Below the pieces are notes generated by a model, which was given only the letters and a program-made list of their open reading frames with translations, was not told where the DNA came from and did no database searches. Made by a program: the position numbers and the translations under genes. Of a stretch of DNA of 64,000 nt, positions 19,119 through 29,406 are shown piece after piece. How positions within the stretch are numbered: position 1 is the stretch's first letter; every line of letters begins with the position of its first letter. Origin of the DNA: Pseudomonas sp. MF4836 (GTDB lineage Bacteria; Pseudomonadota; Gammaproteobacteria; Pseudomonadales; Pseudomonadaceae); NCBI RefSeq assembly GCF_002018875.1, contig NZ_MVOL01000010.1, forward strand, positions 186,001-250,000, in the 5' to 3' direction.

Positions 19119-21641
19119 TCAGGGTGGACTGGCCCCCAGTTGCTGCCACATTTTTGCGCTGATCCGCTGCCGATGGGCATAGCCGGTCCAGGGGTCGCCC
19201 TTGAGGGTTTCCAGGCGTTGCCAGAGGGTGCGGATGTCCCATTGCTGGGCGCTGCGCAACCCTGGCAGTTCATCGCGGCTGATGGGCACCGACACCGGCA
19301 GGCCAGGCCTGGCCCTGACCGAATAGGCCGCCACGGTGCTGGCGCCACGGGCATTACGCAGGTAGTCGACGAATATTTTCCCGACGCGGTTCTTCGGGCC
19401 CATGGTGGCGCTGATCCGCTCCGGCAACTGCTGCGCCATAAAGTGCGCGATGGCCTTGGCGAAGGCCTTGACCGTGGTCCAGTCATGGACCCGTGCCAGC
19501 GGCACGATCAGGTGCATGCCCTTGCCGCCACTGGTTTTCAGAAACGCCTGCAGCCCCAGTTCGTCGAGCACTGAAAGGGTCAGCTGGGTCGCTTCGAGCA
19601 TGGTTTTCCAGGGCAGGGCCGGGTCCGGGTCGAGGTCCAGGACAAACTGGTCCGGGGTGTCGATGTGCTCGGTGGTGGCGCCCCAGGTGTGCAACTCGAC
19701 CGTGCCCATCTGCGCCGCGCCGATCAGCGCCGGCAGGCTGTCGATTTCCATCAGGCGTGCATGGCCGGGGTCCAGGGCCGGGTCCAGGTGCTTGATGTGG
19801 GGGATGGCCAGGTGCTCGGCGTGTTTCTGGAAGAATTGCTCGCCCTCGACCCCTTCGGGCGCGCGCAGCAAGGACACCGGGCGCCGACGCAGGTGGGGCA
19901 GGATCCAGTCGCCGATGCTTTGGTAGAACTGGGCCAGCTCAAGCTTGGTGGTGCCACTGCGGGCATCGATGACCCGTTCCGGGTGACTGATGCGCACCCC
20001 GGCGACACTGTCCGGGGGCTGGCTCGGGCTGTGTTTCTCCGCTGGCGTTTGATGCTCCCTGGGCGCTGGTGCCTGCTCGCGAACCACCTGGGTCGCCGGT
20101 TTGTCGCTGCGCAGGGCAATAAAGGCGGCCTGACGCACCAGGTCTTCACGGGTCCACTCGGCAAACTCCACTTCGCCCACCAACTGCGGTTCGATCCAGT
20201 GCACGCCCCGGGCCTGGGCCGTCGTCAGTGGCTTGGCCAGGGGCGAGGCGGGGCGTTCCAGTGGCTGCATCTGGCCATGCAGCTGTTTCAGCATGGCCTG
20301 GTTGAACCCGGTGCCCACGCGCCCGGCGTAGACCAGCCCGGACGTGGCGTACACCCCCAGCAGCAACGCACCAAAGCCGCTGCGCGAGCCTTGCGGTCGG
20401 GTGTAGCCGATGATCACGAACTCCTGGCGCAGGCGGCATTTGAGCTTGATCCAGTCCGGGCTGCGCCGCGACACATAGGGGCTGCCGGCGCGCTTGCCGA
20501 TCACGCCTTCCAGGGACAGGGCGCAGGCGCTCTCGAAAATATCCTGATGGTGGGCGGCGAAGGCCTCGGAGAAGCGCAGCACCTTGCTGTTCTTGCGCCC
20601 CAGGGCCTGCTTGAGCAGGGCTCGGCGCTCTTCCAGCGGCGTCTGGCGCAGGTCGGCGCCTTGCAGGAACGGGGCGTCGAACAGGTAGTAAATGATGTCC
20701 AGGCTGCGGCCGATGTCGAAGGCGCTCTGCAAGGCCTGGAAGTCTGGCAGGCCCTTGTCGTTGAGCACCACCACCTCGCCATCCAGCCAGCTGTCGCGCA
20801 ACTTCAGCGCCGCCAGGGCCTTGGCCTGCAACGGCAGGCGCGGGGTCCAGTCATGGCCGTTGCGGGTCAGCAGGCGCACCTGGCCTTTTTCGATCCGGGC
20901 CATGATTCGGTAGCCGTCGAATTTGATCTCGTAGCGCCAGTCACCGTTGGGCGGCTGTTCGGCCAGGGTCGCCAACTGCGGTGCCAGGCGTTCTGGCAGG
21001 GCCGTGGCGGCTGCTGTGGCGCGCGTGGACTTTTTGTCTTTGGGCGGGGATTTTGGCTTACTCCGGCCGGCACCGACCGTGGCCTGGCTGATCACGCTTT
21101 TAGGCAGGTCTTCGAGGACGTCGTATTCATCGGCGGAACGGGCTTGCGGGTCGTTTTCCTTGATCAACAGCCACTGCTGCTTGTCGCCACTGCCGCGTAA
21201 ATGGGTGCGGACCAGGGTCCAGTCACCTGCCAGCTTTTCGCCGATCAGGCGGAACTTGAGCTTCCCAGCCTCGTAGCCGGCCTGCGGATCGCCATGGGGC
21301 TGCCACACGCCATGGTCCCAGACGATCACATCGCCGGCGCCATATTGGCCGGCAGGGATGCTGCCCTCGAAATCGCGGTAACTCAGGGGGTGGTCTTCGA
21401 CATGCACGGCCAGGCGTTTCTGAGTCGGGTCCAGGCTCGGGCCCTTGGGCACCGCCCAGCTTTTCAGGGTGCCGCCCAGCTCCAGGCGAAAGTCGTAATG
21501 CAGGTTGCGTGCATCGTGTTTCTGGATCACGAAACGCAAGGCCGAGGCCCCCGGCCTGTCCTTGGCCGACGGCGTGTCCGAGGGCTCGGAGGTGATGTCG
21601 AAATTGCGTTTGCGGCTGTATTCACTCAGGGGTCTGGCCAT
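19119..21641 (-). CDS. ligD: Multifunctional DNA ligase D (PE-LIG-POL)
   Basis: An 840-residue NHEJ enzyme with the Pseudomonas domain order. Residues 1-175 are the 3'-phosphoesterase (HDARNLHYDFRLE gives H42, H48 and D50; HVEDHPLSYRDFEG). Residues 215-520 are the ATP-dependent ligase, with the nucleotidyl-accepting K240 in EIKFDGYR, DGEVV, SLEGVIGKRAGSPY and DWIKLK. Residues 545-840 are the primase-polymerase (LDLDPDP at 668-674, TSGGKGMHLIVPL). It fills, trims and seals double-strand breaks with Ku, whose gene lies 35 bases upstream on the same strand. Confidence 0.97.
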   Translation of the reverse strand: MARPLSEYSRKRNFDITSEPSDTPSAKDRPGASALRFVIQKHDARNLHYDFRLELGGTLKSWAVPKGPSLDPTQKRLAVHVEDHPLSYRDFEGSIPAGQYGAGDVIVWDHGVWQPHGDPQAGYEAGKLKFRLIGEKLAGDWTLVRTHLRGSGDKQQWLLIKENDPQARSADEYDVLEDLPKSVISQATVGAGRSKPKSPPKDKKSTRATAAATALPERLAPQLATLAEQPPNGDWRYEIKFDGYRIMARIEKGQVRLLTRNGHDWTPRLPLQAKALAALKLRDSWLDGEVVVLNDKGLPDFQALQSAFDIGRSLDIIYYLFDAPFLQGADLRQTPLEERRALLKQALGRKNSKVLRFSEAFAAHHQDIFESACALSLEGVIGKRAGSPYVSRRSPDWIKLKCRLRQEFVIIGYTRPQGSRSGFGALLLGVYATSGLVYAGRVGTGFNQAMLKQLHGQMQPLERPASPLAKPLTTAQARGVHWIEPQLVGEVEFAEWTREDLVRQAAFIALRSDKPATQVVREQAPAPREHQTPAEKHSPSQPPDSVAGVRISHPERVIDARSGTTKLELAQFYQSIGDWILPHLRRRPVSLLRAPEGVEGEQFFQKHAEHLAIPHIKHLDPALDPGHARLMEIDSLPALIGAAQMGTVELHTWGATTEHIDTPDQFVLDLDPDPALPWKTMLEATQLTLSVLDELGLQAFLKTSGGKGMHLIVPLARVHDWTTVKAFAKAIAHFMAQQLPERISATMGPKNRVGKIFVDYLRNARGASTVAAYSVRARPGLPVSVPISRDELPGLRSAQQWDIRTLWQRLETLKGDPWTGYAHRQRISAKMWQQLGASPP

Positions 21642-21676
21642 GACGGACTACCTTGTGCTGCGCGCCCATGCGAGGT

Positions 21677-22579
21677 TCAGGCGCGGGTCTTGTGCGTGGA
21701 CTTCTTGCTGGGGGCTTTTTTGCTGGCGGGTTTGGCAGGCGCGCGTCGGGTGGCCGGTTTGGCGGATTTGGCCGGGGCCTTGGCGCTGGGGCGCGAGCCG
21801 AGGCTGCGCTTGAGCATTTCGGTGAGGTCGATAATGTCGGCGCTTTTGCGTTGCTCCTCGCCAGCCTGGGTCTCGACGTCCTCGATCTTGCCGGCGCGGG
21901 CTTTCTTCTCCACCAGGGCGTGAATCTTGTCCTCGAAGCTGTCGCGGTACTGCTCGGGCTCCCAGTCGGCGCTCATGTCTTCCACCAGGCGCTTGGCCAT
22001 TTGCAGCTCACCCTTGGCCAACTGCGGCTGGGTGACTTCGGCCCCCAGTTCGAGTTCGTCGAGGCTGCGCACCTCGGCCGGCCAGCGCAGCATCACCAGC
22101 ACCAGCGCCGACTCCAGGGGCATCAGTGCCGCCAGGTGCTGGCGGGTGTGCAGCACCACGTGGGCGAGGGCGACCTTGTCGGTGCTGGTCAGGGTCTCGC
22201 GCAGCAGCGCGTAGACCTTGCCGCCGCGTTTGTCCGGAGCGAGGAAGTACGGGGTGTCGACGTTTTGCAGGGGGATCTGCTGGCTGTCGACGAAGGCAAA
22301 GATATCGATGGTCTGGGTCGACAGCGGGTGCGCCGAGCGGATTTCCTCTTCGCTGAGCACCACATAGCGGCCTTTCTCGTATTCCACGCCCTTGACGATG
22401 TGTTCCTTGGTGACTTCCTTGCCGGTGACTTTGTTCACGCGCTTATAGCCCACCGGGTCCATGCTGCGCTGATCCAGCCAGTCGAAGTCGACGCCGTGGG
22501 ACGCCGTGGCCGACACCAGGGCCACCGGGATATGCACCAGACCGAAACTGATCGCGCCCTTCCAGATTGCCCGTGCCAT
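21677..22579 (-). CDS. ku: Non-homologous end-joining protein Ku
   Basis: A 300-residue bacterial Ku that forms a homodimeric ring on DNA ends and recruits LigD. It begins MARAIWKGAISFGLVHIPVALVSAT, continues through the beta-barrel core (YKRVNKVTGKEVTKEHIVKG, YFLAPDKRGGKVYALL) and ends in a lysine/alanine-rich tail (from about residue 265) of the type that aids DNA binding. ATG 22579 is preceded by GAGG; a longer frame to 22630 has no support. It is transcribed directly before ligD. Confidence 0.97.
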   Translation of the reverse strand: MARAIWKGAISFGLVHIPVALVSATASHGVDFDWLDQRSMDPVGYKRVNKVTGKEVTKEHIVKGVEYEKGRYVVLSEEEIRSAHPLSTQTIDIFAFVDSQQIPLQNVDTPYFLAPDKRGGKVYALLRETLTSTDKVALAHVVLHTRQHLAALMPLESALVLVMLRWPAEVRSLDELELGAEVTQPQLAKGELQMAKRLVEDMSADWEPEQYRDSFEDKIHALVEKKARAGKIEDVETQAGEEQRKSADIIDLTEMLKRSLGSRPSAKAPAKSAKPATRRAPAKPASKKAPSKKSTHKTRA

Positions 22580-23222: not shown

Positions 23223-24374
23223 ATGTTGCGTAAAACTCTCCTGGCCACGTTCTGCGCCAGTGTTTTCCTGACCACCGTACCCGCCGCCTCGGCTGCCACC
23301 GCGCAGCAATATGCCAGCGAGCAGGGCACCCTCAGCGTCACCCCGATCACCCAGAACCTCGATCATCCCTGGGCCCTGGCCTTCCTTCCGGACAGCCAGG
23401 GCATGCTGGTGACCGAGCGCCCCGGCCACCTGCGGCTGGTCAACGCCGACGGCCGGATATCGGCGCCACTGACCGGTGTGCCGCAGGTCTGGGCCAAGGG
23501 CCAGGGCGGCCTTTTGGACGTGGTGCTGTCACCGGACTTCAAGCAGGACCGCATGGTCTACCTGTCGTACGCCGAGGGTGGTGGCGAAGGCGGCACTGCC
23601 GGGACGGCGGTGGGTCGTGGCCGGCTGTCCAGTGACCTGAAGAGCCTGGAAGGTTTCCAGGTGATCTTCCGCCAGGAACCCAAACTCTCCACGGGCAATC
23701 ACTTCGGCTCGCGGCTGGTGTTCGACCGTGACGGCTACCTGTTTATCACCCTCGGCGAAAACAACGATCGGCCGACGGCCCAGGACCTGGACAAGCTGCA
23801 AGGCAAAGTCGTGCGCCTCTTCGCTGACGGCAAGGTGCCGGACGACAACCCCTTCGTCGGCCAAAGCGGCGTGCGTCCGGAAATCTGGTCCTACGGCCAC
23901 CGCAATCCCCAGGGCGCGGCCCTCAATCCTTGGAGCGGCACCTTGTGGGAGAACGAGCACGGGCCCAAGGGCGGCGATGAAATCAACATCATCGAGCGCG
24001 GCAAGAACTACGGCTGGCCCCTGGCGACCCACGGCATCAATTACTCCGGCCAGCCGATCCCTGAAGCTCAGGGGCAGAGCGCACCAGGCACCGTGGCCCC
24101 GCACCATGTCTGGGAGAAGTCTCCGGGCATCAGCGGCATGGCGTTCTATGACGGTGACCGCTTCAAGGCCTGGCAGCACAACGTGTTTATCGGCGCACTG
24201 GCCTCGCAGGAGTTGATTCGCCTGCAATTCGACGGTGAGCAGGTGGTGCATGAAGAGCGCCTGCTCGGCGAACTCAAGGCGCGCATCCGCGATGTGCGCC
24301 AGGGGCCGGACGGTTACCTCTATGTCTTGACCGACGAGGACAAGGGCGGGCTGTACCGCGTAGGCCTGAACTGA
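23223..24374 (+). CDS. PQQ-dependent aldose sugar dehydrogenase (Asd/YliI type)
   Basis: A 383-residue periplasmic six-bladed beta-propeller with a signal peptide (cleavage near AASA, residue 25). Motifs include LDHPWALAFLPD with the catalytic-type His-Pro-Trp and ERPGHLRLV. WAKGQGGLLDVVLSPDF, STGNHFGSRLVF and WSYGHRNPQG (PQQ and Ca ligands) follow, then NEHGPKGGDEIN. Family members oxidise aldose sugars with pyrroloquinoline quinone. The last 55 bases overlap, antisense, the 3' end of the GNAT/C39 gene. Confidence 0.92.
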   Translation: MLRKTLLATFCASVFLTTVPAASAATAQQYASEQGTLSVTPITQNLDHPWALAFLPDSQGMLVTERPGHLRLVNADGRISAPLTGVPQVWAKGQGGLLDVVLSPDFKQDRMVYLSYAEGGGEGGTAGTAVGRGRLSSDLKSLEGFQVIFRQEPKLSTGNHFGSRLVFDRDGYLFITLGENNDRPTAQDLDKLQGKVVRLFADGKVPDDNPFVGQSGVRPEIWSYGHRNPQGAALNPWSGTLWENEHGPKGGDEINIIERGKNYGWPLATHGINYSGQPIPEAQGQSAPGTVAPHHVWEKSPGISGMAFYDGDRFKAWQHNVFIGALASQELIRLQFDGEQVVHEERLLGELKARIRDVRQGPDGYLYVLTDEDKGGLYRVGLN

Positions 24375-25519
24375 TTGCCGGCGGCGCCGGGGCCAGGGTC
24401 ACCGTTGGCATCCGGCACCTGTGCCGGGGGGGCGTACAGCACCACCGCCGCCCGCAACTTGCTGCTGCCGAAGCTGCACATCTTGGCGAACTCGGCGTGG
24501 CTCACCGGCAAGTGCTGGCAGTCCACGGCCTGGCGATGCTGGCTGTGGTCGACGTCCGGGTCGTGCAGGTAGACAAAATCCGGGTCACAGTCAGTGACCA
24601 TCACCCAATGCGGCGCCTTGGAGCGGGTCAGGCGATAACTGCTGATCAGCACCAGGGGCTGCCCACCGTCGTGCAGCAGGCGCGACAGGTCCAGCGGTCC
24701 GCCCAGCACCTGCTGCACCGAACTCTGGGCCAGTTGCGCGCAGAACTCTTCGTGCACCAGGCGCATGACGTCCTTTTTACGCTCGTCCCGCACGCCATTG
24801 AGAAACAGCGGGCCCACGGTATTGACCTGTAACCGCACCCGAAAACCTCGCTGCCAGGCCGCCAGTGCCAAACCCTGGGGGCTGCAGCCGCCATGGCCTG
24901 CGGTCATGAACACGGTGGTGGCTTCACGCCAGATCTGCAGCTCTTCGCGGCGCTCCAGTAGCCGGCCGGGTTGCAGGGCGCCCATGGCCATCAACAGGCA
25001 GGCCGGGCCGCAGGTGAAGTCGGTGGTCTGGGGGTAGTAGGGTACGCGGATGCTGCGGGTCTCGCGGTGCTGCAGGATGCGTTTTTCCAGGCGCAGGGCA
25101 TCGGCGTGGTCCTGGTAATAGTCGTGGATCAGGGCAAAGCGCCGATAGCCGTTGCGCTCATAGAGGGCAATCGCCGACGGGTTGTCGCTGCGTACCTCCA
25201 GGCGCAGGTAGGCGCAGTCATGCGCCAGGGCCCGTGCCTCGATCTCTTGCAGCAGGCGCTGCCCCAGGCCCTGGCCCCGTGCCTGCACGGCGATGGCGAT
25301 CGAATACAAGCGCGCCAACGAAGTGCCACGGTGAAACAGCACCAGGGCATAGCCCTGAATGCCTCCCTGGTGTTCGGCGACGACCAACTGCCCATGGGCC
25401 CGGCTGATCATCCATTGGAAGCTGCGCGGCGTCAGCCGGTCGCTGGTGAAACATTGCTGTTCCAGCGCCAGCAGACTGGGCAGGTCGTCGAGGGTTGCAG
25501 TGCGAAAGACAAGATCCAT
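24320..25519 (-). CDS. GNAT acetyltransferase fused to a C39-like cysteine peptidase
   Basis: A 399-residue two-domain protein. Residues 1-150 are a RimI-like GNAT domain (VQARGQGLGQRLLQEIEARA is the acetyl-CoA loop, then NPSAIALYERNGY). Residues 155-370 are a papain-fold C39-like peptidase with catalytic Cys170 in TDFTCGPACLLMAMG and His304 in APHWVMVTD, and a candidate Asp320 in YLHDPD. The fused architecture is typically encoded beside a RimK-like ATP-grasp ligase, exactly as here (divergent, 92 bases apart). A joint role in making and trimming or acetylating a peptide-like modification has been proposed for such pairs. ATG 25519 begins the GNAT fold; a longer frame to 25570 lacks support. 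The final 17 residues are antisense to the sugar dehydrogenase. Confidence 0.9.
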   Translation of the reverse strand: MDLVFRTATLDDLPSLLALEQQCFTSDRLTPRSFQWMISRAHGQLVVAEHQGGIQGYALVLFHRGTSLARLYSIAIAVQARGQGLGQRLLQEIEARALAHDCAYLRLEVRSDNPSAIALYERNGYRRFALIHDYYQDHADALRLEKRILQHRETRSIRVPYYPQTTDFTCGPACLLMAMGALQPGRLLERREELQIWREATTVFMTAGHGGCSPQGLALAAWQRGFRVRLQVNTVGPLFLNGVRDERKKDVMRLVHEEFCAQLAQSSVQQVLGGPLDLSRLLHDGGQPLVLISSYRLTRSKAPHWVMVTDCDPDFVYLHDPDVDHSQHRQAVDCQHLPVSHAEFAKMCSFGSSKLRAAVVLYAPPAQVPDANGDPGPGAAGNQFRPTRYSPPLSSSVKT

Positions 25520-25611
25520 ATAACCGCCGTAAAAGTTGCGTAATGAAACGGGACTTTTAAAAAACTTCATGCTTAATAGAAACGGTCTTGTTCTTCAGCG
25601 GATCAATCACT

Positions 25612-27198
25612 ATGTCAGCGGTACAGGGTCAATGGCGTGAAGTATCCGAGCAAAGTTTGCCGGAAACAATAACGACAACTGCTTATTTTTCCGAGGTGGC
25701 TAGAACTTCCAGCCAGCTGGTTATTATTGTCGAACGCAAGGAGGACTGGGCGTCCTACTTCCCCAGCGAAGACGTGGTCACGGCTCAGGAATACCTTGAG
25801 CAAACCCGTGGTAATGAGCCGGGCAAGCGGGTCCAGGTGATCAACCTGTGCCGCAGCTACAAGTACCTGGGCCATGGCTACTACTGCTCGTTGCTGGCCG
25901 AGGCGCGGGGCCATCGGGTGATTCCTTCGGTGCGGACCATCAGCGAGCTGACCCGTAAGTCGCTGTATGGCCTGGCCTTGGATGACCTGGATAAAACCCT
26001 GGAAAAGGCCCTGAATAATCATGCTTACAGTGACACTGAAGCCTTTACTCTGACCTTGTACTTCGGCAAAAGTAGTATCGAGCCGTTGCAGGATCTGGCG
26101 CGTCAGTTATTCGAGTTGTTTCCCTGTCCCATACTGTTAGTTGACTTCAAGAGAACTAACGGCTGGCACATTGAAGGGGTCAAGTCCGGCACGTTGCATA
26201 AAGTGCGCGATGATCAGGAAGATCAATTCGCCAATGCCCTGGACAGTTTCAGCCGCAAGATCTGGCGCCTGCCACGCTCGCGGCGCATGGCCCGTTATGA
26301 CCTGGCGATCCTGCATGACCCGCAGGAAGCCTTGCCGCCGTCCAACGCCCTGGCCCTGGAGCGTTTTATCCGGGTCGGCAAGGGGCTGGGCATCGATGTC
26401 GAACTGATCGAGAAAAAGGATTACTCACGCCTGGCCGAATACGACGCCTTGTTGATCCGCGAAACCACCAGTGTCGACAACCACACCTACCGCTTCGCGA
26501 AAAAGGCCGAGAGCGAGGGGCTGGTGGTGATGGATGATCCGGCGTCGATTCTGCGCTGTACCAACAAGGTGTACCTGACCGACCTGCTCAAGAGCCATCA
26601 ATTGGGCATGCCGGCCACCGAGATTCTGTACAAGGAGCGACCGCAGGACTTCGAGCGCGTGGGCGAGCGCCTGGGGTTCCCGCTGGTGCTGAAGATCCCC
26701 GACGGCTGTTTCTCCCGTGGGGTGATCAAGGTCGAAAGCCAGCAGGCGCTGCTGGAGGCGACGGCCGAGCTGTTCGAGCATTCGGTGCTGTTGCTGGCCC
26801 AGGAGTTTTTCTACACCGAGTACGACTGGCGCATCGGCGTGCTCAACCGCAAACCGATCTTTGCCTGCCAGTACTTTATGTCCAAGGGCCACTGGCAGAT
26901 CTACAACCACAAAGCCAAGGGCCAGGACATCAACGGCGAGTGCCGGACCCTGGCGGTGCACGAGGCGCCGCGAGCAGTGGTGGAACTGGCGGTGAAGACC
27001 GCCAACCTGATCGGCGACGGCCTGTATGGGGTCGACCTCAAGCAGTCCGGCGACAAGGTGGTGGTGATCGAGGTCAACGACAACCCGAACATGGACGCCG
27101 GCATCGAAGACGCCTACTTGCAGGACGACCTGTATTCCCTGGTGCTTGAGGAGTTTGTCCGACGCCTGGAGCTCAAGCGTCGCGGCCAGGCCTGGTGA
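25612..27198 (+). CDS. RimK-like ATP-grasp ligase with RLAN N-terminal domain
   Basis: A 528-residue protein. The N-terminal part (about 35-200) is the RimK-like N-terminal (RLAN) domain: QLVIIVERKEDW, then VINLCRSYKYLGHGYYCSLLAEARGHRVIP. The middle (about 235-290) is a pre-ATP-grasp region, YDLAILHDPQEALPPSN. The C-terminal ATP-grasp core includes SILRCTNKVYLTDLL, FPLVLKIPDGCFSRGV, LAQEFFYTEYDWRIGVLN and VVVIEVNDNPNMDAG, where ENDNP-like residues bind magnesium. Such enzymes form amide bonds between a carboxylate and an amino group (RimK adds glutamate). The target is unknown. It overlaps no neighbour but ends 10 bases before the CorA-like gene, an evident operon. Confidence 0.9.
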   Translation: MSAVQGQWREVSEQSLPETITTTAYFSEVARTSSQLVIIVERKEDWASYFPSEDVVTAQEYLEQTRGNEPGKRVQVINLCRSYKYLGHGYYCSLLAEARGHRVIPSVRTISELTRKSLYGLALDDLDKTLEKALNNHAYSDTEAFTLTLYFGKSSIEPLQDLARQLFELFPCPILLVDFKRTNGWHIEGVKSGTLHKVRDDQEDQFANALDSFSRKIWRLPRSRRMARYDLAILHDPQEALPPSNALALERFIRVGKGLGIDVELIEKKDYSRLAEYDALLIRETTSVDNHTYRFAKKAESEGLVVMDDPASILRCTNKVYLTDLLKSHQLGMPATEILYKERPQDFERVGERLGFPLVLKIPDGCFSRGVIKVESQQALLEATAELFEHSVLLLAQEFFYTEYDWRIGVLNRKPIFACQYFMSKGHWQIYNHKAKGQDINGECRTLAVHEAPRAVVELAVKTANLIGDGLYGVDLKQSGDKVVVIEVNDNPNMDAGIEDAYLQDDLYSLVLEEFVRRLELKRRGQAW

Positions 27199-27208
27199 GG
27201 CCGCCGCG

Positions 27209-28138
27209 ATGATCCAGAGCTACCGCTTGGCCCAGGGGCGCCTGCTGCCGGTGCAGCGGCTGGACGCCGAAGTGATGTTGTTCTGCAACCCCGACCTGGG
27301 GGAGCGCGACCTGCTGCACAGCGCGTTCAAGCTCGATGAGCATGCCCTGGCCTCCGCCCTGGACCCGGACGAGGTGTCGCGCATCGAGTTTCATCCCGAC
27401 AACCTGTTCCTGATCTGGAAGCGCCCGGAAAACTACTCCGGCGGCGGCAGCCTGGCGTTCGAGGTGTCGTCCTGCGGGTTGCTGTTTTCGCCGGATCGCC
27501 TGCTGGTGATCGCCACCGACGACGGCCAACTCGACGGCCTGGGCCAGCGCCAGGCCCTACACACGCCGTTGGATGTACTGCTGGACCTGCTGCTGGGCAA
27601 TATTCACCACTACCTGGGGCACCTGAAGGTGATCAAGATGGTCGCCCGGGAGTTGCAGCAGCAGTTCAACGCCTCCATGGAAAACCGCCACCTGGTGCAG
27701 ATGTTCAACCTCAGCGAGAGCCTGATCTATTACATCAATGCGATTCACAGCAACGGTGCGGTCCTGACCCGGTTGCGCAACCATGCCGAGAAGGAGCATT
27801 TCAGCCCGCAGGCGGTGGGCCTGATCGACGATCTGATCATCGAAAACAACCAGTGCTACAAGCAGGCGGAGATCTACTCCACGGTGTTCTCCGGGCTGAT
27901 CGATGCCCGCGGCAACCTGATGAACAACAACATGAACAGCCTGTTGCGCAAGCTGACGCTGATCAACGTGGTGTTTCTGCCGCTCAACCTGCTGGCCAGC
28001 ATCGGCGGCATGTCGGAGTTCAGCATGATGACGGCCGGCACGCCCTGGTGGGTGTCGTACCCGTTGTTTCTCAGCGCCATGGGCCTGGGGGCGGGGGCCA
28101 TGGTGCTGGGGCTGAAGCGGCTGGCGAAAAGCCCTTGA
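27209..28138 (+). CDS. CorA-family divalent cation transporter with GMS motif
   Basis: A 309-residue 2-TM-GxN protein. The large N-terminal cytoplasmic domain and long helix (ending NMNSLLRKLTLINVVFLPLNLLASI) precede TM1 and the pore-mouth motif. That motif reads GGMSEFSMM rather than the invariant GMN of CorA/ZntB. TM2 is SYPLFLSAMGLGAGAMVLGL with a short basic tail. Transport of Mg, Zn or another ion is therefore uncertain. ATG 27209 lies ten bases after the ATP-grasp stop, so they are cotranscribed. Ligase activity is metal-ATP dependent, but whether that is the link is speculation. Confidence 0.88.
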   Translation: MIQSYRLAQGRLLPVQRLDAEVMLFCNPDLGERDLLHSAFKLDEHALASALDPDEVSRIEFHPDNLFLIWKRPENYSGGGSLAFEVSSCGLLFSPDRLLVIATDDGQLDGLGQRQALHTPLDVLLDLLLGNIHHYLGHLKVIKMVARELQQQFNASMENRHLVQMFNLSESLIYYINAIHSNGAVLTRLRNHAEKEHFSPQAVGLIDDLIIENNQCYKQAEIYSTVFSGLIDARGNLMNNNMNSLLRKLTLINVVFLPLNLLASIGGMSEFSMMTAGTPWWVSYPLFLSAMGLGAGAMVLGLKRLAKSP

Positions 28139-28232: not shown

Positions 28233-28301
28233 ATGACTTCCCCAGCATTCCGTTCCCAGCCAAGCATTATTACCGCCATTCCTTATTGGCGGGCTTGCTG
28301 A
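28233..28301 (+). CDS. Putative leader peptide with Ile/Thr codons
   Basis: A 22-codon reading frame MTSPAFRSQPS-IITAI-PYWRAC ends at TGA 28299-28301. It has three Ile codons (ATT ATT at 28266-28271 and ATT at 28278-28280) with Thr ACC between, directly over strand 1 of the attenuator. The ribosome binding site is not obvious. Isoleucine is the end product of the pathway that threonine dehydratase begins, so Ile-tRNA starvation would stall a ribosome here. Confidence 0.6.
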   Translation: MTSPAFRSQPSIITAIPYWRAC

Positions 28302-28337
28302 CGACTGCACCCAACCCGCCCTGGAGGCGGGTTTTTT
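28273..28337 (+). promoter_or_regulatory. Transcription attenuator before the threonine dehydratase gene
   Basis: Three alternative pairings are visible. Strand 1/2 is CCGCCA (28273-28278) with TGGCGG (28287-28292). Strand 2/3, the antiterminator, is GGCGGG (28288-28293) with CCCGCC (28315-28320). Strand 3/4, the terminator, is AACCCGCC (28313-28320) with GGCGGGTT (28326-28333) followed by TTTT. Stalling on the leader Ile codons would mask strand 1, favour 2/3 and allow readthrough. The architecture is seen directly; function is inferred. Confidence 0.7.
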
Positions 28338-28380
28338 CTCTCTGTCTTCCGGGCTTCGAACACCACCCAGGAGACCTCCC

Positions 28381-29406
28381 ATGACCCGCGCCAACCGCCA
28401 GGACCCGCAACTCGGGCTGCTTGAAGGCTATGTGAAGAAAATCCTCGCGGCGCCGGTCTATGACCTGGCGGTGCGCACGCCGCTGCAATTGGCGCCGGCC
28501 CTATCCCAAGCACTGGGCAATCAGATCCTGCTCAAGCGCGAAGACCTGCAACCGACCTTTTCCTTCAAGATTCGCGGCGCCTACAACAAGTTGTCACAGC
28601 TCAGCGAGGCGCAGCGTCAGCGTGGGGTGATTACCGCCTCGGCGGGCAATCACGCCCAGGGTGTAGCCCTGGCGGCGCGGGAGCTGGGTATCGAGGCAAC
28701 CATCGTCATGCCCACCCACACCCCGGAGCTGAAGGTGATCGGGGTGCGCAGCCGTGGGGCCGAGGCGGTGCTGCACGGGCCGAGCTTTCCGTTTGCCCTG
28801 GCCTACGCCCTGGAGCTTGCGGCGCAGACCGGGCGCACCTTTGTCTCACCGTTCGACGACCCGGATGTGATCGCCGGGCAGGGCACCGTGGGCATGGAGA
28901 TCCTGCGCCAGCAGCCCGGGGCGCTGGATGCGATCTTTGTACCGGTGGGTGGGGGCGGGTTGATCGCCGGGATTGCCGCCTACGTCAAGTACCTGCGCCC
29001 TGAGGTGCGCATCGTGGGCGTGGAGTCCGAGCACTCCAATTGCTTGCAAATGGCGCTCAAGGCCGGGGAGCGGGTGGTTCTGCCCAGCGTCGGTACCTTC
29101 GCCGATGGGGTCGCGGTGGCCCAGGTCGGCGCCCATGGGTTCGAGATCTGCCGCCACTATGTGGATGAGGTCTTGACCGTGAGCAATGATGAACTCTGCG
29201 CCGCAATCAAGGACATCTACGACGATACCCGCTCGATCACCGAACCTTCTGGCGCCCTGGCCGTGGCCGGGATCAAGCGCTACGTGGCGCAGCGGCAAGT
29301 GCGCGGGCAAACCCTGGTCGCCATCGACTCGGGGGCCAATATCAACTTCGACAGCCTGGGCGGCATTGCCCAGCGCGTGGCCCTGGGCAATGCCGTACCG
29401 GCCTGA
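28381..29406 (+). CDS. Threonine ammonia-lyase without ACT domain
   Basis: A 341-residue PLP enzyme converting L-threonine to 2-oxobutyrate and ammonia, the first step to isoleucine. The PLP lysine is K63 in SFKIRGAYNK. The glycine loop VPVGGGGLIAGIAAY (near 184-198) and ITASAGNHAQG are intact. Biosynthetic IlvA has about 500 residues with two ACT-like domains for isoleucine feedback. Here the protein ends right after the catalytic domain (ANINFDSLGGIAQRVALGN), although the N-terminus (YVKKILAAPVYDLAVRTPL) is of IlvA type. Allosteric control is therefore probably absent; the attenuator upstream may replace it. It could be a second, dedicated copy beside a full IlvA elsewhere. Confidence 0.9.
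   Translation: MTRANRQDPQLGLLEGYVKKILAAPVYDLAVRTPLQLAPALSQALGNQILLKREDLQPTFSFKIRGAYNKLSQLSEAQRQRGVITASAGNHAQGVALAARELGIEATIVMPTHTPELKVIGVRSRGAEAVLHGPSFPFALAYALELAAQTGRTFVSPFDDPDVIAGQGTVGMEILRQQPGALDAIFVPVGGGGLIAGIAAYVKYLRPEVRIVGVESEHSNCLQMALKAGERVVLPSVGTFADGVAVAQVGAHGFEICRHYVDEVLTVSNDELCAAIKDIYDDTRSITEPSGALAVAGIKRYVAQRQVRGQTLVAIDSGANINFDSLGGIAQRVALGNAVPA

Follow-up and report, generated by a model that had tools for sequence, protein, structure and literature searches.

In the 7.5 Mb genome of Pseudomonas sp. MF4836, a gene for a GNAT domain fused to a C39-like peptidase domain and a gene for an RLAN-ATP-grasp ligase lie divergently in the 64,000-nt stretch of DNA that we call the window. We found that this GNAT-C39/RLAN-ligase pair is a conserved unit. 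Within the window's genus, a third gene, for a CorA-like membrane protein with a changed pore motif, is bound to the module, while elsewhere such a gene rarely lies beside it. With its conserved catalytic residues, its recurrent co-occurrence and its predicted GNAT and ligase folds, the module could be a cytoplasmic writer, capper and eraser of peptides that makes an N-acetylated short peptide or a peptide tag. We put the chances of this reading at about even. The features of the module are as follows.

24320-25519, minus strand: GNAT domain (predicted RimI/Ard1-like fold, aa 1-150) joined to a DUF3335 C39-like domain (aa ~159-361), 399 aa in all; from Pfam, residue conservation and an AlphaFold model
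25520-25611, no strand: divergent intergenic region of 92 bp; from an alignment of 91 genus loci, window included
25527-25554, plus strand: conserved 28-bp block CCGTAANNNNTGNGTAAYGAANCGGGAC; from the genus-locus alignment and a genome pattern search
25612-27198, plus strand: RLAN + RimK-like ATP-grasp amidoligase, 528 aa; from Pfam, residue conservation and a structure model
25783-26238, plus strand: RLAN domain of the ligase (aa 58-209); PF14401, 6.9e-53
27209-28138, plus strand: CorA-superfamily membrane protein, 309 aa, in an operon-like position after the ligase; PF01544, 5.3e-29
28007-28015, plus strand: G-M-S (aa 267-269) where CorA has the G-M-N pore motif; from an alignment with a GIN-bearing CorA

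The comparison covered 149 loci, namely the window, 80 Pseudomonas loci and 68 loci from a phylum sample. The 80 were the best 80 of 266 ligase matches, and among these the closest named relatives of the ligase were all Pseudomonas. The phylum sample comprised 398 Pseudomonadota genomes, in which 6 of the 75 RLAN places were left out of the locus set, and the genus sample comprised 249 genomes of the window's genus. Both samples held one genome per species, drawn from larger groups. Genes in the compared loci were called with our own open reading frame (ORF) script. Labels beginning with L and G denote loci and genomes compared.

In the phylum sample, RLAN was present in 72 of the 398 genomes and DUF3335 in 58, and 57 of these 58 also carried RLAN (Fisher 1e-53, ignoring kinship). 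The sole genome with DUF3335 and without RLAN was G008; in G193 and G006 the DUF3335 match lay far from RLAN. A GNAT or GNAT-C39 gene was present at 148 of the 149 loci and lay no more than 400 bp from the ligase at 147 of them, the exceptions being L154, where the GNAT is 1.4 kb from the ligase, and L115, which has no GNAT. The orientation of the pair varies, with the two genes diverging in certain lineages and running the same way in the rest, which speaks for a functional link rather than a frozen gene order. Among the 68 phylum loci, GNAT-C39 was found in 50, GNAT alone in 17 and neither in one. At three loci of one genus (L162, L169 and L173) the RLAN ligase itself begins with a fused GNAT, and a separate GNAT-C39 gene adjoins it. 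Because of the C39-free loci and this GNAT-ligase fusion, we regard GNAT and ligase as the core of the unit and the C39 domain as a frequent addition. As a separate observation, three genomes of a related genus (G062, G146 and G058; loci L114 and L118-L122) have two RLAN modules each; one of the two includes GNAT-C39, whereas the other has a GNAT without C39.

The protein at 24320-25519 matched the Pfam families Acetyltransf_1 (7.2e-17) and DUF3335, 'Peptidase_C39 like' (2.9e-87, 291.9 bits). An upstream ATG is possible and would give 416 aa instead of 399 aa; Pfam domain positions are counted from the 416-aa start, and the residue numbers Q164, C170 and H304 from the 399-aa start. These three residues were invariant in 56 of 56 aligned GNAT-C39 proteins, and residue 320 was Asp in 43 and Glu in 13. 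By its family match and this Gln-Cys-His-Asp/Glu set, the DUF3335 domain is, as judged from sequence, a putative papain-fold peptidase. An earlier interpretation of the window, the sequence-only reading, had named a GNAT fused to a C39-like protease with Cys170 and His304, and both the Pfam matches and the complete conservation bear this out. DUF3335 members are often fused to GNAT, according to the part of PMC10318531 available to us.

On the GNAT side, 56 fused and 18 separate GNATs were compared; E108 and Y135 were kept in all of them, and Y134 in all 56 fused and 16 of the 18 separate ones. A tyrosine pair at these positions is typical of N-terminal acetyltransferases. The AlphaFold model of the protein had a mean predicted local distance difference test (pLDDT) score of 89.2, and the fold matches of its GNAT part were tied between Ard1 (Z 23.6, 1.3 Å, 147 residues aligned) and RimI (Z 23.2, 2.0 Å, 148 aligned). 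Against the RimI equivalog the GNAT scored 84.5, below the cut-off of 86.4. In the fold search with the whole model, all listed matches fell on the GNAT part and none on the C39 part; a sequence search with the C39 part alone gave no match.

The ligase gene diverges from the GNAT-C39 gene by 92 bases, as the sequence-only reading had it, and this spacing is correct because the ATG at 25612 sits in a stretch conserved across 91 genus loci. In Pfam, the protein matched RLAN (178.8 bits, cut-off 25) and the RimK and Dala_Dala_lig_C ATP-grasp families. Its ATP-grasp residues K319, K361, Q397, D405, R407, D475, E487 and N489 were invariant in 73 of 73 ligases. With the catalytic residues intact in ligase, C39 domain and GNAT, the enzymes of the pair look active. 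The ligase model had a mean pLDDT of 82.6, and its C-terminal half matched LysX/ArgX (Z 28.2, 2.3/2.6 Å, 268 aligned) and RimK (Z 27.6, 2.7 Å, 271 aligned), again in a tie. The listed fold matches of this whole-protein model all fell on the ATP-grasp part and none on RLAN. These relatives of the ligase, like Ard1 and RimI on the GNAT side, act on protein or peptide carboxyl ends and alpha-amines.

The ligase is not RimK, since it scored 80.3-81.6 against the RimK family, below the cut-off of 143.4, and a separate and clear RimK (287 bits) is encoded elsewhere in the genome. On these scores, action on ribosomal protein S6 only, which the sequence-only reading had raised as a challenge to its view, appears unlikely. 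A broader explanation is specific protein modification, in which one dedicated protein, ribosomal or CorA-like, would be acetylated and tagged at its C-terminus. RimI and RimK do act on ribosomal proteins S18 and S6, and the nearest folds of both enzymes act on protein ends. Yet the true RimK is a different gene, 326 of the 398 genomes are without RLAN, unlike ribosomal targets, and no constant target gene was found beside the module. We consider this explanation unlikely.

The CorA-like gene begins 10 bp past the ligase stop. RLAN is patchy in the window's genus (106 of 249 genomes), and an orthologue of the CorA-like gene (E <=1e-40) was found in 96 of the 249, namely in 95 of the 106 genomes with RLAN and in 1 of the 143 without (Fisher 6e-55, ignoring kinship). 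Of the 97 genus CorA matches, 96 came immediately after an RLAN match and shared its strand. At the 81 genus loci, the gene was present in 68 and missing from 13. In G568, the sole genome with the gene and without RLAN, a truncated ligase (residues 308-528) precedes it; since this remnant is kept before the CorA-like gene, G568 looks like a decayed module. G460 has ligase, CorA and GNAT-C39 in that order on one strand. Decaying modules that keep the CorA-like gene and have lost parts of the ligase or GNAT-C39 match were seen at L199 (G568), L182 (G556) and L198 (G608); at L199 the ligase remnant is 99% identical to the window's ligase and the CorA 85%.

In the phylum sample, 70 of the 72 genomes with RLAN had some CorA match (136 places, own genome included). 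Counting CorA matches no more than 15 kb from RLAN and leaving the own genome aside, a CorA-family gene lay beside the module in 2 of the 71 other RLAN genomes, G016 and G002. In G016 it lies 13 bp after the ligase and carries GIN; in G002 it lies upstream of the GNAT, with a weak C-terminal match and GMN present. Four genomes of one genus had a CorA match ~20 kb from RLAN. By a rough chance estimate, taking ~1.9 CorA matches per genome, four neighbour positions and ~4,000 genes, ~0.14 such neighbours would be expected in 74 modules; the two cases seen outside the genus are suggestive, no more. The CorA-like gene is thus bound to the module within the window's genus and is rarely beside it elsewhere. 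The sequence-only reading had asked for a survey of this neighbourhood and named missing conservation of the CorA-like gene next to the pair as a result that would refute it; the gene is clearly conserved there inside the genus and largely absent outside. A CorA profile built on the genus found no CorA outside it and was dropped, since the CorA proteins of L159 and L152, both divergent, escaped it and were picked up by the Pfam model.

The PF01544 match of the CorA-like protein (101.6-101.9 bits, cut-off 27) spans model positions 11-292 of 292. Among the genome's four CorA matches the window copy is the weakest (101.6 bits vs 169.2, 181.5 and 191.6), and it scored 54.7 against the NCBIfam corA equivalog, below the cut-off of 200.75. 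The aligned stretch reads GGMSEFSMMT and has no GMN. The sequence-only reading, which had described a CorA-like transporter gene 10 bases after the ligase, is right on position and family, but the protein is the genome's most distant match to that family and is without the family's motif. We searched 100 loci for the pore residue, 13 of which had no CorA match; all 87 loci in which residue 269 could be read had Ser there, across identities of 52% to 88%, and the triplet was GMS in 86 rows and GVS in one. In CorA transporters it is the GMN asparagine that selects the ion, as described in the accessible part of PMC3629940. That the changed motif is conserved speaks for a role that is kept but altered, for which an altered channel, a sensor or a structural partner are candidates on the sequence evidence.

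This substitution bears on the proposal of the sequence-only reading that the product is a metallophore-like or metal-buffering peptide, in which ligase and C39 domain would produce a peptide that binds metal, and the CorA-like protein would carry the metal. Three lineages (the window's genus, G016 and G002) have a CorA-family gene adjoining the pair, and phytochelatin synthase is likewise papain-fold, according to the part of PMC10318531 available to us. Nevertheless, Ser replaces the GMN asparagine at every readable locus, and no Fur box was found in the window at <=3 mismatches from the consensus (a Zur site was not searched for). These two results leave the metallophore idea unsupported. 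In addition, 69 of the 71 other RLAN genomes have no CorA match next to the module, and no siderophore family was among the 25 commonest families of two neighbour scans. We regard a metal-binding product as very improbable. The more general claim, that such a pair is suited to building and processing a peptide, stands: the pair is a conserved unit and its domains fit.

The 92-bp region between the divergent genes contains the 28-bp block, which is largely kept in 91 genus loci. It is unique in the genome, with 0 mismatches at 25527-25554 and no second site at <=3 mismatches, and is probably a shared regulatory site. The block has two GTAA steps, 11 bp apart. OmpR-type regulators often have direct repeats with such 11-bp spacing, and the spacing of the GTAA steps would match repeats of that type.

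No third gene recurred beside the module as constantly as the pair itself, whether neighbour ORFs of >=70 aa were clustered or 160 neighbour proteins were scanned with Pfam and the 25 commonest families of each tally considered (8 of 168 proteins were omitted from the scans, three of 71-85 aa and five of 903-1452 aa). The tallies held Na_H_Exchanger (4/81, also at L154), Na_Ca_ex (2/79), DUF155 (2/79), DUF2817 (2/81 and 2/79) and DUF520 (1/81 and 2/79). Of 1477 small ORFs of 25-69 aa within 4 kb (74 loci), 4 had a match in a different family, and these four belong to a single ribosomal-protein-like locus seen in L161 and L170. DUF2817 lies beside the module in L133 and an RMND1-type DUF155 in L177; by sequence, DUF2817 or DUF155 genes are probably also beside it in L139, L149, L165 and L145. 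KefB-like genes lay 1.1-3.1 kb from the ligase in 6 of 148 loci from 3 families (L112, L113, L125, L129, L134 and L144), a set chosen after seeing the data. A Na/H exchanger is near the module in L154, and a Na/Ca exchanger probably in L159 and L176. As the proximity of antiporters was noticed post hoc, it is only a lead.

Two further explanations draw on these neighbours. In the first, the product is a small acetylated dipeptide solute, similar to N-acetylglutaminylglutamine amide (NAGGN), for which the GNAT would acetylate, the ligase would add a second amino acid and the peptidase would recycle. The fusion of GNAT and ligase that three genomes of one genus carry resembles the fused NAGGN synthetase (GNAT/ATP-grasp), and the GNAT weakly matches the NAGGN synthetase model TIGR03103 (E 7.4e-07). 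Ionic or osmotic stress would be in keeping with the cation antiporters that four families have near the module. However, the TIGR03103 score of 28.1 is far below the cut-off of 569, no amidotransferase was among the 25 commonest families of the two neighbour scans, GNAT and ligase are nearest to protein-end enzymes, and the antiporter pattern was seen only after the fact. We find a dipeptide solute rather unlikely. The second explanation is an analogy with glutathione, which gates Kef. As a ligand, the peptide product might gate or set a cation-transport protein, namely the GMS CorA-like protein in the window's genus and, elsewhere, the KefB-like antiporters, Na/Ca exchangers or other CorA-family genes near the module. 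We consider such gating improbable.

For the writer, capper and eraser, whose logic parallels RimK/RimB and rloABC, the reactions, their order, the opposition of C39 domain and ligase and the CorA-like role that we infer are as follows. The RLAN-ATP-grasp ligase would use ATP to join an amino acid to the free carboxyl of an acceptor, as RimK and LysX/ArgX do, and the acceptor could be an amino acid, a short peptide or a protein end. The RimI/Ard1-like GNAT would acetylate the alpha-amine of the same substrate or of the product. The optional C39-like cysteine domain would cleave or transfer the product, counterbalancing the ligase as RimB does RimK. In the window's genus, the CorA-like protein without the GMN filter, probably cotranscribed, would serve as membrane partner, sensor or altered channel.

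Several points weigh against this reading. Adjacency and fusion do not prove a single pathway. Cleavage is not essential, since 17 of the 68 phylum loci do without the C39 domain, as do genus loci such as L007, L015 and L034. The CorA-like gene is absent from 11 of the 106 genus genomes with RLAN, and a CorA-family gene adjoins the module in only the two other genomes of the phylum sample named above. A recurring substrate, precursor or carrier gene beside the module was not found among the ORF clusters, the 25 commonest families of the Pfam tallies or the small ORFs, and for this reason acceptor and product are guesses.

The module is flanked by a glucose/sorbosone-dehydrogenase gene (23223-24374) and a threonine-dehydratase-like gene (28381-29406). 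The sugar-dehydrogenase and GNAT-C39 genes lie on opposite strands, and their 3' ends overlap by 55 bp (24320-24374). Immediately before the threonine-dehydratase-like gene, at 28233-28340 (plus strand), lies a short ORF whose last residues are QPSIITAIPYWRAC; it overlaps the Rfam P9 small RNA (RF00624, score 83.4 bits) and a hairpin that resembles an intrinsic terminator. In a pattern search, an ORF with the SIITAI core and a variable N-terminus was found in 64 of 81 genus loci. For the threonine-dehydratase-like gene, P9 may act as an Ile/Thr attenuator leader. At 19119-22579 (minus strand), the genes for a LigD-type DNA ligase and for Ku adjoin each other and form a bacterial end-joining pair.

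The product of RLAN ligases, present in 72 of the 398 sampled Pseudomonadota, is not known to us. Its link to a single CorA-like protein provides a small, dispensable three-gene unit for a product search, in a genus with easily handled soil species that can be compared naturally with and without RLAN. Should the CorA-like protein respond to the product, a family known for metal channels would have a member under peptide control.

Iyer et al. in 2009 reportedly found an RLAN/RimK-like ligase next to a GNAT-papain protein and predicted peptide synthesis, and the Pfam text on RLAN presumably makes the same statement. Our module shares the families (PF14401 and PF11814), adjacency and fusion with these neighbourhoods; it differs from what is reported of them in the added CorA-like third gene, the dispensable C39 domain, the GNAT-ligase fusion and the counted co-occurrence. 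NAGGN synthetase likewise joins a GNAT with an ATP-grasp domain and has a linked peptidase, but the module is far below its cut-off. LysX and ArgX, ligases of amino-group carriers, are the best ligase folds together with RimK, and LysX shares the HW..N stretch; the substrate loop differs, however, and no LysW-like carrier was noticed near the module. With CorA and ZntB the third protein shares the PF01544 match, but it has GMS where they have GMN or GIN.

In the literature searched, which left most subscription journals outside, we found no experimental report on the pair and no mention of the CorA link; the portion of PMC7367687 available as text does not mention RLAN. According to the part of PMC12239564 available to us, RimK/RimB of Pseudomonas sets a RimK-type ligase against an opposing peptidase; in our module the ligase stays below the RimK cut-off and carries RLAN as an additional domain, the peptidase is C39-like rather than aspartic, and a GNAT is added. 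From the same part of PMC12239564, RloABC of Pseudomonas aeruginosa resembles the module in holding an ATP-grasp protein, a peptidase and a membrane protein in one operon, but its membrane protein is unrelated (an inactive transglutaminase) and its peptidase is a secreted aspartic one. Set beside these systems, the pair is of an already predicted kind without a solved function, and the genus-bound CorA-like gene with its changed motif is the new part.

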